From positions 23,183 to 87,182 of the forward strand of contig NZ_JALHLX010000002.1 of the NCBI RefSeq assembly GCF_022844385.1: a DNA stretch of 64,000 nucleotides. Reading direction: 5' to 3'. Positions 55,917 to 58,845 of this stretch are shown piece by piece. The DNA is from Hydrogenophaga sp. (lineage in GTDB: Bacteria; Pseudomonadota; Gammaproteobacteria; Burkholderiales; Burkholderiaceae_C). Under the pieces are notes generated by a model that saw nothing but the letters and a program-made list of their open reading frames with translations, was not told the DNA's origin and did not search any database. Positions within the stretch are counted from its first letter, which is position 1. Every line of letters begins with the position of its first letter. The translations under genes were made by a program, and so were the position numbers.

Positions 55917-57185
55917 ATGAAATCGGGCCTGAACTTTCTGGTGGCGGCCAAACGCTGCGAAATCGCCGAGCTGCAGCAGCTCGCGCTCACCAGCGCCCTG
56001 GTGAACGTGACGGGGCGTCTGGTGCACGGCCTGCAGCGCGAGCGGGGTCTGTCCAACCTGTTTCTTGGTTCACAAGGCGTGCAGTTCGGCGAGGTGCGCA
56101 AGCACCAAATCGCCGAGTGCCGGCAGATCGAGGCCGAACTGCGCGCCTGCTTTGACGAGCTGGACACCGAGTCGGCGCGGCTGGGCAACGGCGCGCGCCT
56201 GTTCAGCCGAATCGCCTATGTGCTCCACGGACTGGACGCGCTGGACGGGCTGCGCGCGCGCGTCCAGGCGCTGGAATGGACGCCGCAGCAGGCCACCGAG
56301 GCCTATGTGAGGTTGATCGCCGGTCTGCTGGCAGTGGTGTTCGAGGCCGCCGACAGCGCCAGCGACCCGGAAATCTCGCGCCTGCTGGTGGCCTTGTTCA
56401 ATTTCATGCAGGGCAAGGAGTTCGCGGGGCAAGAGCGCGCGGCCGGCTCGGCCCTGTTTGCCGCTGGCCGTGCCGTGGCCGAAGAGCAGCAGCGCCTGCT
56501 GCACCTGATCGAATCGCAAGAACGCTGCCTGGAGGTGTTTGCCGAGTTCTCGAGCCCACACGTGGTGGAGCTGTGGAACAGCACCCAGGCCAGCGCCATG
56601 CTGGCCGAGCTGGAACGTTTGCGCCGCGTGCTGTGCACGGCACCGCACGGCTCACCGCTCAATGCCCAGATGAGCCAGGCCTGGTTTGACTGCTGCAGCC
56701 GGCGCATGGACCGCATGAAGGCGGTGGAAGACCGCCTCGCGCTCGACCTGCTGCAAGCCTGCGAACAGAAAATTGCCGCCGCCAACGCCGAGCTGGACAG
56801 TTTTCACGCACTGCACACCGTGCCGGCCACCGAGGCAGACGTGTTGTCGTTCTTCCGTGCACCCGAGTCGCAAGGCGCGGCGGCGTTTGGCACCAACACC
56901 CAGGGCTACGGGCTGCACCTGGAGCGCTCGATCCTGGAGCTGGTGCAGGAACAGGCGCGGCGCCTGCAGACCATGAGCGAAGAGCTCGACACCGTGCGAG
57001 CCAGCCTCAACGAACGCAAGCTGATCGAGCGCGCCAAGGGCCTGCTGATGGCGCACCGCCACCTGAGCGAAGAAGAAGCCCACAAGACCATGCGCCAGAT
57101 GGCCATGAACCAGAACCGCCGGCTGATCGAGGTAGCCGAAGCGGTGCTGGCCATGGCCGACGTGCTGCCCGAGCGGCCGCGCTGA
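55917..57185 (+). CDS. nasR: NasR-like nitrate-responsive antiterminator (NIT + ANTAR domains)
   Basis: The 422-residue protein has an N-terminal all-helical NIT sensor (about 30-290; e.g. [21 protein letters not shown], the arginine-rich region that binds nitrate/nitrite). A short linker follows, then an ANTAR domain at about 366-415 ([24 protein letters not shown]). ANTAR domains bind RNA with two hexaloop hairpins and prevent termination. The leader of the downstream nrtA gene can form exactly such hairpins. So this protein should allow nitrate-dependent expression of nrt-nir-nas genes. It replaces the two-protein NasS-NasT system used by other proteobacteria. Confidence 0.9.
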
Positions 57186-57220: not shown

Positions 57221-57367
57221 CAAGAACCGTTGCGCACCAGCTTGATGCCCCGAAAACGACCACGGCCACAAGCAGACCTCACGGTACAAAAGCCGGGACA
57301 ACAGAAAATCCCCTGTAAATCAAGGGCTTTCCGAAAAAACCCGCCATCCTTCGACTCCAGTTTGACG

Positions 57368-57384
57368 CTGGCACACAACCTGCT
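57368..57384 (+). promoter_or_regulatory. Sigma-54 (-24/-12) promoter of the nrt-nir-nas operon
   Basis: CTGGCACACAACCTGCT has GG at 57370-57371 and GC at 57382-57383, exactly 10 bp apart, with TGGCAC as the full -24 element. Transcription should start near 57395, leaving a leader of about 150 bases before nrtA. The promoter fits with the NtrC-like site upstream and means control by nitrogen limitation. Confidence 0.75.
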
Positions 57385-57404
57385 TTGAACAAGACAAAGG
57401 AAAT

Positions 57405-57463
57405 TGGGCCAATGGCGGTCCGGCTTCCGACAGTCACCCCCCGACACTGGACAACGGCGTCCA
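57405..57463 (+). promoter_or_regulatory. Two-hexaloop ANTAR-binding RNA leader of nrtA
   Basis: Hairpin P1 has stem GGGCC/GGTCC (57406-57410 with 57417-57421, one G-T pair) closing the hexaloop AATGGC. Hairpin P2 has stem TGGAC/GTCCA (57448-57452 with 57459-57463) closing the hexaloop AACGGC. Both loops have A at position 1 and G at position 4, the hallmark of ANTAR targets, and differ at one base. They are 25 bases apart and lie in the predicted leader downstream of the NasR-like gene. Confidence 0.75.
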
Positions 57464-57527
57464 TTTCCGGTTTGCGTTTCGCAGGCCTGGAGATGGGCGC
57501 CGTTGTGCTTTGGGGATCCGGTTTTTT
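57420..57527 (+). terminator. Alternative terminator-like fold competing with the ANTAR hairpins
   Basis: Bases 57451-57470 pair with 57487-57506 over 20 positions (three wobble pairs), with a small inner hairpin TGCG/CGCA. Outside it 57420-57428 can pair with 57513-57521 (one mismatch, one wobble), and six T follow immediately at 57522-57527. Forming this fold destroys P2 and part of P1. It is therefore a good candidate for the structure NasR prevents. The internal loop of 22 and 6 bases makes it unusual for an intrinsic terminator. Confidence 0.5.
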
Positions 57528-57546
57528 CATCAGCAAGGAGTTGGAC

Positions 57547-58845
57547 ATGAACGCAGACACCACCGGCGCCACCGTTCCCCAGGCTTTGGCCGACACGACC
57601 ACCGAATCCGCCGCAGCTTCGCGGCGCGACTTCATCAAGAAGAGCACCGCCGTCGGCGCTGCCACCTTCTTCTCCACGCTGGGCCACAGCGGCGTGTGGG
57701 CGGCCGGCTCCGACGCACCTGAAAAAACCGAGGTCAAGATCGGCTTCATTCCGCTGACCGACTGCGCCAGCGTGGTGATGGCCGCCGAGTTGGGCATCGA
57801 CAAGAAGTACGGCGTGAAGATCGTCCCCACCAAGGAAGCCAGCTGGGCCGGTGTGCGCGACAAGCTGGTCAACGGTGAGCTGGACATGGCCCACGTGCTC
57901 TACGGCCTGATCTACGGCCTGCAGCTCGGCACATCGGGGCCGAAGAAAGACATGGCCATCCTGATGAACCTGAACCAGAACGGCCAGGCCATCACGCTGT
58001 CCAGAAAGCTGGCCGAAAAAGGCGCGGTGGACGGCCCTTCGCTGGCCAAGCTCATGGCCACCGAAAAGCGCGAATACACCTTCGCCCAGACCTTCCCCAC
58101 CGGCACGCACGCCATGTGGCTTTACTACTGGCTGGCCAGCGCCGGCATCGACCCGATGAAGGACGCGCGCGCCATCGTGGTGCCACCGCCGCAGATGGTG
58201 GCCAACATGCGCGTGGGCAACATGGACGGCTTCTGCGTGGGTGAACCCTGGAACCACCGCGCCATCATGGACGGCATCGGCATCACGGCCAACACCACGC
58301 AGGACATCTGGAAAGACCACCCCGAGAAGGTGCTGGGCACCACGGCCGAGTTCGTGCAGAAAAATCCGAACACCGCGCGTGCGGTGACCGCCGCCATCCT
58401 GGAAGCGGGCAAGTGGATCGACGCCGGTCTGCAGAACAAAAACAAGATGGCCGAAACCATCGCCCAGCGCTCGTATGTGAACACCAGCGTGGACGCGATC
58501 AACCAGCGCATCCTGGGCCGCTACCAGAACGGCATGGGCAAGACCTGGGACGACCCCAACCACATGAAGTTCTACAACGACGGCGCGGCGAACTTCCCCT
58601 ACCTGAGCGACGGCATGTGGTTCCTCACGCAGCACAAGCGCTGGGGCTTGCTCAAGTCGCACCCCGACTACTTGGCCGTGGCCAGGCAGGTCAACCGCAT
58701 CGACATCTTCAAACAGGCCGCCACGGCCAGCAAGACCTCGCTGCCCAAGTCCGAGATGCGCAGTGCGAAGTTCATCGACGGTGTGGTGTGGGACGGCAAG
58801 GACCCCGCCAAGTACGCGGATTCGTTCAAGATCAACGCGGCCTGA
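57547..58845 (+). CDS. nrtA: Nitrate ABC transporter substrate-binding protein NrtA
   Basis: The 432-residue protein has a Tat-type signal (SRRDFIKKSTAVGAATFF, about residues 24-41). The mature part is NrtA/CmpA-like: KIGFIPLTDCASVVMAAELG and GNMDGFCVGEPWNHRAI. It binds nitrate (or a related oxyanion) in the periplasm for NrtBC. AAGGAG at 57535-57540 fixes ATG 57547; upstream codons in frame lie inside the RNA leader. It is the first gene of the operon. Confidence 0.93.
   Translation: MNADTTGATVPQALADTTTESAAASRRDFIKKSTAVGAATFFSTLGHSGVWAAGSDAPEKTEVKIGFIPLTDCASVVMAAELGIDKKYGVKIVPTKEASWAGVRDKLVNGELDMAHVLYGLIYGLQLGTSGPKKDMAILMNLNQNGQAITLSRKLAEKGAVDGPSLAKLMATEKREYTFAQTFPTGTHAMWLYYWLASAGIDPMKDARAIVVPPPQMVANMRVGNMDGFCVGEPWNHRAIMDGIGITANTTQDIWKDHPEKVLGTTAEFVQKNPNTARAVTAAILEAGKWIDAGLQNKNKMAETIAQRSYVNTSVDAINQRILGRYQNGMGKTWDDPNHMKFYNDGAANFPYLSDGMWFLTQHKRWGLLKSHPDYLAVARQVNRIDIFKQAATASKTSLPKSEMRSAKFIDGVVWDGKDPAKYADSFKINAA

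Follow-up and report, generated by a model that had tools for sequence, protein, structure and literature searches.

A putative nitrate-responsive NasR/ANTAR leader with a partly structured hexaloop linker ahead of nrtA in Hydrogenophaga

The DNA between a homologue of the nitrate regulator NasR and an nrtA-type gene in Hydrogenophaga sp. raises the question of whether the RNA made from it acts as a switch for the genes that follow and, if so, how an ANTAR protein could span the long linker between its two loops. The window, that is, the whole stretch analysed, comprises 64,000 nucleotides of contig NZ_JALHLX010000002.1. The leader within it very probably attenuates transcription in response to nitrate, in the manner of NasR/ANTAR leaders, with the on/off mechanism proposed below. 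Antitermination by NasR/ANTAR proteins is an already known kind of regulation; the modest new part is the structured linker, which is clearer in relatives than in the window. The leader sits between two genes:

55917-57185, + strand: nasR-like gene with NIT (nitrate/nitrite sensing; Pfam NIT, 6.2e-58) and ANTAR (RNA binding; 1.1e-19) domains
57547-58845, + strand: gene for an nrtA-type nitrate-binding protein (NMT1_2, 1.4e-102), the first of an nrt-nir operon

The start codon at 55917 was placed by alignment, an MKSGL-type start being common to most aligned relatives, and K. oxytoca NasR (4akk) was matched at 4.7e-51 across both domains of the homologue. A cognate NIT-ANTAR protein, as expected for the NasR/nasF class, is encoded by the adjacent gene over the Pfam cut-off, and the closest named sequences to the regulator, judged from the top 80 of at least 490 relatives, are Hydrogenophaga. 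The SD motif AAGGAG (57536-57541) precedes nrtA, and transporter genes and a nirB-type gene lie downstream of it. Within its own genome (94% complete), the regulator is the only ANTAR match and the exact P2/terminator pattern described below occurs once, so that neither search yielded a second target there. RNA-contact residues of EutV, according to the portion of PMC8934654 available, include Arg142, Lys149, Glu160, Met172 and Tyr164; matched by eye, with the chain numbering taken as 2 ahead, the first four are identical at the aligned places in the window's ANTAR domain, and Tyr164, which stacks on loop G4, aligns with His. The residue at this place is His in nine of 11 compared proteins (window included), Tyr in the other two, and Trp in K. 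oxytoca NasR.

Promoters recognised by sigma-54 (RpoN) carry the motif GG-N10-GC, and the consensus of the NtrC dyad is GCACC-N5-GGTGC. Sequences resembling both were found ahead of the leader:

57234-57248, + strand: NtrC-like dyad, GCACCAGCTTGATGC, with one mismatch to the consensus
57369-57384, + strand: putative sigma-54-type promoter TGGCAC-N5-CTGCT (GG-N10-GC), TGGCACACAACCTGCT
57395-57546, + strand: transcribed leader, its predicted start about 12 nt past the -12 GC

The sigma-54-type element, GG-N10-GC included, recurs 40-42 nt upstream of the P1 loop in all 26 leaders of the alignment described below. In the same 26, a dyad with at most two mismatches precedes the promoter by 85-171 nt, at a shuffle frequency of at least 0.12 in ten of them. 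Judged from the position of the promoter element, transcription would begin upstream of 57411, the first base of the P1 loop, in keeping with the premise of the initial annotation that the RNA starts ahead of this loop.

Homologous leaders were sought by blastn, with no motif requirement, in 60 genomes (the window's own, 35 congeners and 24 from other families of the order), and 26 were found. These make up the 26-leader alignment, consisting of the window's own sequence and 25 congeners, and blastn favours similar sequences. A family-wide search found the leader in 24 of 299 genomes and in 16 of 141 genera, own included. A full NasR is present in 26 of the 35 congeneric genomes and the leader accompanies it in every one, being recovered by blastn in 25 and by eye in the last (G007); by blastn, none of the nine congeners without NasR has the leader (Fisher p 1.4e-8 for co-occurrence), eight of these nine genomes being under 90% complete and one at least 90%. 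In each of the 26 aligned leaders, the promoter is preceded on the same strand by an ANTAR-bearing frame that ends 102-206 nt from it, and this NIT-ANTAR gene immediately upstream supports NasR-type ANTAR antitermination, the reading first offered in the initial annotation. An Rfam scan of the whole window returned only a tRNA over the gathering threshold and no match at the leader.

A broader catalogue of relatives was also compiled. Out of at least 490 relatives, drawn from more than 594 matches to the pattern, the top 80 were retained, and the named loci accordingly lean to close relatives. Five entries that were duplicates or other regions (L001, L028, L029, L030 and L037) were left out, and leaders with the same sequence across the compared stretch entered the count a single time. 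In L066, L103 and L113, P1 was assigned anew by hand; no P1/P2 was found by rule in L040, L043, L045, L050, L096 and L105; and the U-tract counts exclude L010 and L070, which could not be parsed. The 102 distinct leaders catalogued presuppose A1/G4 and C-G closing pairs at P1 together with a near-match to the P2 core. Since the catalogue was thus built on the loop pattern, evidence for A1/G4 and the closing pairs was taken from the 26-leader alignment alone.

Two hairpins with the loop features expected of an ANTAR target were recognised by folding:

57399-57428, + strand: P1, with hexaloop AATGGC (57411-57416), core stem 57406-57410/57417-57421 and a lower helix
57448-57463, + strand: P2, the candidate antiterminator hairpin, with hexaloop AACGGC (57453-57458) and stem 57448-57452/57459-57463

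Sequence and folding bear out the initial description of these loops as A1/G4 hexaloops on 5-bp stems; the stem of P1 in fact runs to seven contiguous pairs from 57404/57423, with its lower helix at 57399-57402/57425-57428. The region 57391-57546 folds with a z of -6.16, and none of 200 shuffles folded equally well. All 26 aligned leaders possess two tandem six-base loops with A1 and G4, positions 1, 2, 4, 5 and 6 of the P1 loop and the whole P2 loop being invariant, so the conservation among related nrtA leaders on which the original reading depended is present throughout. Both loops are closed by C-G pairs in all 26, as in the NasR SELEX consensus given in the accessible part of PMC7496416. 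The G007 leader that blastn missed has the loops AACGAC and AACGGC and retains A1/G4. Across the alignment, P1 is paired in 92.3% of cells, with compensatory changes at four of its six pairs, the outer ones; P2 is paired in 100% of cells and provides no covariation because it hardly varies. When either these hairpins or the terminator stem described below were slid by 1-3 columns, pairing fell to 25.6-48.8% of cells.

How these hairpins could control transcription depends on the sequences that follow P2:

57451-57506, + strand: T, a terminator hairpin (-44.5 kcal/mol) whose 5' arm holds most of P2
57503-57511, + strand: proximal U-rich tract, UUGUGCUUU, with exactly six T in nine, the likely termination zone
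57522-57527, + strand: T6 run named in the initial annotation, one of the late T5+ runs counted below

The initial annotation had proposed a long fold in which 57451-57470 pairs with 57487-57506 and a second helix, 57420-57428/57513-57521, adjoins the T run. The former was recovered by folding as the helix 57451-57468/57489-57506 of T, which extends to 57476/57480 past one bulge, is paired in 94.4% of cells and shows compensatory changes at three of 18 pairs among the 26 leaders; the T-adjacent helix was rejected. Although it can be drawn if one mismatch is allowed, pairing in its columns reaches 52.9% of cells (55.3% when shuffled), a count that is weak alone given the indels in the 3' tail; cognate partners have no pairing advantage over swapped ones (p 0.38, in a test that ignores kinship); and a fold in which it is forced reaches -64.3 as against -75.5 kcal/mol, about 11 kcal/mol worse. 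The minimum-energy fold instead combines P1 with T, and the off state is thus better described as one that retains P1 than as the unusual long fold, interrupted by a 22/6 internal loop, from which P1 is excluded.

T includes 57451-57463 of P2, and through these shared bases the two structures would exclude each other, an exclusion that the initial annotation had anticipated for a NasR-type dual-hexaloop leader and that both the folds and the adjacent NIT-ANTAR gene support. Folding under constraints, which had been suggested as a check, favours this part of the proposal and disfavours the forced long fold: with P1 and P2 imposed, the energy is -55.4 rather than the -75.5 kcal/mol obtained with T, about 20 kcal/mol worse, and T is therefore taken as the default, with protein needed to depart from it. 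In these models P2 alone competes with the terminator, and P1 is compatible with T. P2 would accordingly have to be trapped during transcription; such folding describes equilibrium, and whether P2 forms in time lies outside it.

The terminator had been called unlike a compact hairpin and its termination tract placed at TTTTTT (57522), and the relatives favour neither description. A 9-nt stretch with at least six T, starting no more than 8 nt after the stem's GNCGC, was found in 98 of 100 parsable leaders, which makes the terminator look compact, as against a late T5+ run in 53 of 100 (19 of the 25 parsable leaders of the genus); 45 of the 47 leaders that have no late run possess the proximal tract. 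For example, leaders of the Variovorax type often end in GGACGCCTTTTTTGTTTT, a textbook terminator arrangement. On these counts, the stretch right after the stem (57503-57511) is more likely to be the U-tract than TTTTTT, even though the window's own proximal tract is imperfect.

Between P1 and P2 lies a linker within which two further pairings can be drawn, one reaching the 3' tail and one local, the latter a hairpin that the initial annotation had not noticed:

57433-57445, + strand: PX, a linker hairpin (GUC/GAC) of 3 bp in the window
57439-57515, + strand: TX, a possible extension of T in the minimum-energy fold of the full leader, pairing CCCCGA (57439-57444) with UUGGGG (57510-57515)

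In the window the linker measures 26 nt from the 5-bp stem of P1 to that of P2, or 19 nt from the extended P1, and loop-to-loop spacing among the first 24 leaders measured was 39-42 nt. The 102 catalogued leaders fall into 74 with a loop distance of 34-44 and 28 with one of 27-31, the latter consisting of Variovorax and its neighbours plus one Curvibacter; leaders of the Variovorax type are 11-12 nt shorter and have no PX. Most relatives with a long linker have a PX of 4-7 bp, usually close to P2, with arms that differ by lineage (GUCU/AGAC, GUCC/GGAC, GUCA/UGAC, GGCU/AGCC, AAGUC/GACUU and CAGGUC/GGCCUG). Within the genus, PX is paired in 92.3% of cells, with one of four pairs covarying, in a count that includes two rows, L007 and L027, whose alignment at PX is faulty and was not corrected. 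In the window itself, the fourth pair of PX is mismatched, and the hairpin fails a rule that asks for at least four pairs, no more than one of them G-U and at least two G-C, a loop of 3-9 nt and an end no more than 8 nt from P2.

Counted after five P1 pairs in both classes, the unpaired nucleotides outside PX number 12.3 in long linkers (sd 1.8, range 4-15; the 58 of 74 leaders with PX), and short linkers measure 13.9 nt as a whole (sd 0.7, 28 leaders); the two classes therefore differ by about one small hairpin. We infer from these lengths that PX may be a length-compensating spacer, which would bring the unpaired distance between hexaloops to about 12 nt, similar to the roughly 14 nt of short-linker relatives. 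Short linkers, which have no such fold, average -0.2 kcal/mol (Z -0.7). A tree of NasR (FastTree only, 104 proteins), in which branches are long and L135 is a partial protein covering 28% of columns, requires about three changes of linker type, so that independent evidence for PX is limited. On this tree, the NasR of the Curvibacter locus L074 groups with the long-linker proteins (support 82), yet its leader has a short linker like that of Variovorax, and either an exchange of leaders or a second loss of PX would account for this.

Three other readings of these data have to be weighed. The one with the greatest claim, although still unlikely, is that PX has no function: the linker would just happen to be longer in a single lineage, and chance would account for the folding of short GC-rich stretches. 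Consistent with this, long linkers have unremarkable energies singly (median z -0.6), the window's PX is only 3 bp long, linker type changes only about three times on the NasR tree, no hairpin is found by rule in 14 of 68 distinct long linkers or in seven of 16 dissimilar representatives, and L012 and L081 pass the rule with a hairpin other than the usual one. Against it stand the 54 of 68 linkers that do have a hairpin of at least 4 bp, compared with 18.7 when shuffled (sd 3.5, maximum 28 in 300 sets), and an aggregate energy Z of -4.3, although the shuffle tests for PX and for energies both treat related leaders as independent. The 16 representatives escape this limit, and nine of them have the hairpin as against 4.3 shuffled (p 0.007). 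A functionless PX also fits poorly with the differing arm sequences between lineages and with the bigger linker folds seen in NasR leaders from other families.

A role for PX of another sort is contemplated by the second reading, which we consider improbable. Since the window's proximal tract is imperfect, the later T6 run and a contribution from TX were retained as a rival, in which the functional terminator would be T plus TX, ending at TTTTTT (57522-57527), and PX would act chiefly as a switching element, lending its 3' arm to the terminator; TX would indeed use up this arm. TX is present in the minimum-energy fold of the full leader, a T5+ run occupies the late position in 19 of 25 genus leaders, and CCGGA/UCCGG in L011, L014 and L019, where pairs like CCAGA/UUUGG occur elsewhere, looks compensatory. 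Partner swapping, which ignores kinship, gave no sign of coevolution between the PX arm and the tail, pairing among cognates not exceeding that of swapped partners (p 0.21); moreover, TX is separated from T6 by 6 nt, and in the 47 of 100 leaders that have no late T run the proximal tract is present in 45. Finally, the conserved stretch might be coding, with an open frame beginning at TTG 57385 and running into nrtA, a reading with practically no remaining likelihood. The list of open reading frames does contain one uninterrupted frame through the leader (57385-58845, +), but the length from promoter to ATG ranges from 178 to 201 nt in 24 leaders (own included), with single-base differences, and the frame is not kept; variation in the leader follows base pairs instead. 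The coding reading was rejected and the open frame is attributed to chance.

The NasR/ANTAR attenuator thus remains the preferred account, and its steps can be proposed as follows. A nitrogen-limitation promoter of the sigma-54/NtrC type would start the RNA just before P1. If nitrate and nitrite were absent, NasR would stay off the RNA, T would form while emerging, and the polymerase would stop in the adjoining U-rich tract. If either were present, a NasR dimer would hold the A1/G4 hexaloops of P1 and P2, and P2, once held, would keep the 5' arm of T from the terminator and permit read-through into nrtA and the later genes. The long linker between P1 and P2 would be folded away by PX. The sequences themselves show the anatomy of the leader, its conservation, the pairings of P1 and T, and the adjacent NIT-ANTAR gene that co-occurs with it; binding, nitrate dependence, the start site and the point of termination we infer.

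Comparison with these systems draws on excerpts of the published reports. According to those on K. oxytoca (PMC7496416, PMC3369936), NasR binds only with nitrate or nitrite, requires both hairpins for full affinity and blocks the terminator, a model that the present leader fits. K. oxytoca NasR/nasF and the window share a NIT-ANTAR regulator, A1/G4 hexaloops, C-G closing pairs, a P2 inside the 5' arm of the terminator and a nitrate assimilation operon downstream (PMC7496416, PMC3369936); the window differs in its long linker with a hairpin, nasF being known here by description rather than by sequence. Part of the nasF linker is described as essential in the excerpt of PMC3369936. The eutP, eutG, eutS and eutA leaders of E. 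faecalis, as excerpted, likewise possess dual A1/G4 hexaloops and a P2 that overlaps an intrinsic terminator (PMC3369931, PMC8934654), but EutV, unlike the window's NasR, is a phosphorylated response regulator, and the eut linker is 5-12 nt long and length-sensitive. For example, induction fell drastically when the eutP linker was set to 3 or 14 nt (PMC3369931, in part), and adding 20 nt to a eut linker abolished antitermination in vitro (PMC8934654, in part). NasS-NasT leaders, such as Bradyrhizobium nosR and Paracoccus nasA, resemble the window in their ANTAR protein, leader hairpins and response to nitrate, as far as the excerpts of PMC6759348 and PMC5424462 extend, and differ in that NasS senses nitrate and the antiterminator has no NIT domain. 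Finally, AmiR/amiE of P. aeruginosa, the founding ANTAR system, also has two A1/G4 hexaloops (PMC3369931, in part), although AmiR responds to amides via AmiC and has no NIT domain (PMC3369936, in part).

Several points speak against the preferred reading: the proximal U-tract has six T in nine; the window's PX has just 3 bp, linker energies are unremarkable singly and a single PX pair covaries within the genus; the residue aligned with the one that stacks on G4 in EutV is His in most of the compared proteins; eight of the nine genomes without NasR are under 90% complete; and the linker, at 26 or 19 nt, is longer than the 5-12 nt of eut leaders. A published screen for ANTAR targets accepted 2-25 nt (PMC8164766, in part), and PX may shorten the effective distance. 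ANTAR targets have been predicted for Burkholderia and Pseudomonas too, according to the excerpt of PMC3369931. The present case would extend the nitrate switch to Hydrogenophaga and its relatives as a pair of one regulator and one leader that is simple to test, and a comparison of Hydrogenophaga with Variovorax, in which the switch exists naturally with a long and a short linker, could reveal how one ANTAR dimer bridges both loops. Should structured linkers prove common, genuine ANTAR leaders would escape any search with a length limit on the linker, such as the 2-25 nt given in the available part of PMC8164766. In the literature listings and excerpts searched, no mention of a linker hairpin or of a three-hexaloop ANTAR leader was found.

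Larger folded linkers were found in NasR leaders of three other families: 44 nt in L137/L253, 76 nt with two hairpins in L140/L254, and a further one, by eye, in L142; the linker of L135/L136 is short. In L142 (genome G374), the NasR-like gene is split between two frames, with NIT in one and ANTAR in another, and looks broken or mis-sequenced; its leader keeps P1, P2 and the large folded linker despite this.

Class- and order-level searches matched the P2/terminator pattern in 32 of 369 and 63 of 300 genomes, respectively, as against 12 of 369 and 22 of 300 for the pattern read backward, so that part of the matches are chance. Of the 58 loci obtained (L163-L220), which have the core GGACAA[A/C]GGCGTCC, three belonging to the same family as the window were set aside, and the others gave 46 matches, in 45 loci, with a U-tract. 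Of these 46, 35 have at least one further AANGNN hexaloop on a stem of 5 bp or more in the 100 nt upstream, compared with 0.46 shuffled (maximum 3), and 11 have at least two such loops upstream of P2, compared with none in 300 shuffled sets, related leaders again being treated as independent. Three tandem A1/G4 hexaloops can accordingly be seen in L170, L171, L176, L193, L198-L201, L203, L205 and L215. An ANTAR frame without NIT is present in 24 of the 58 loci (three cut by the locus end), among them five of the 11 three-hexaloop loci (one cut); a sixth, L200, has one in a larger fetch (L251). Such loci are probably targets of NasT.

It is tempting to suggest that the dual-hexaloop definition of ANTAR targets is too narrow and that the space between the loops is a built element, namely a PX spacer with 12-14 unpaired nt in Comamonadaceae and, elsewhere, folds of 44 or 76 nt or a third A1/G4 hexaloop, from which a dimer could choose loop pairs; we regard this generalisation as tentative and somewhat closer to doubtful than to probable.

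Several minor observations were made in the same searches. Exact copies of the 14-nt P2 core GGACAA[A/C]GGCGTCC (57449-57462 in the window) occur both in NasR-adjacent leaders and near NIT-less ANTAR genes (L135-L220), and span families of the class, part of the pattern matches being chance. In L143, L175 and L192, the P2/terminator core and a U-tract are present with no recognisable P1 upstream, and L143 and L192 come from the same genome. Finally, six Hydrogenophaga genomes (G001, G024, G026, G027, G032 and G034) encode a second ANTAR match besides NasR, in an open frame of 431-1199 aa (e.g., L246-L249), and G011, G014 and G032 possess an ANTAR match in a frame of 225-228 aa.
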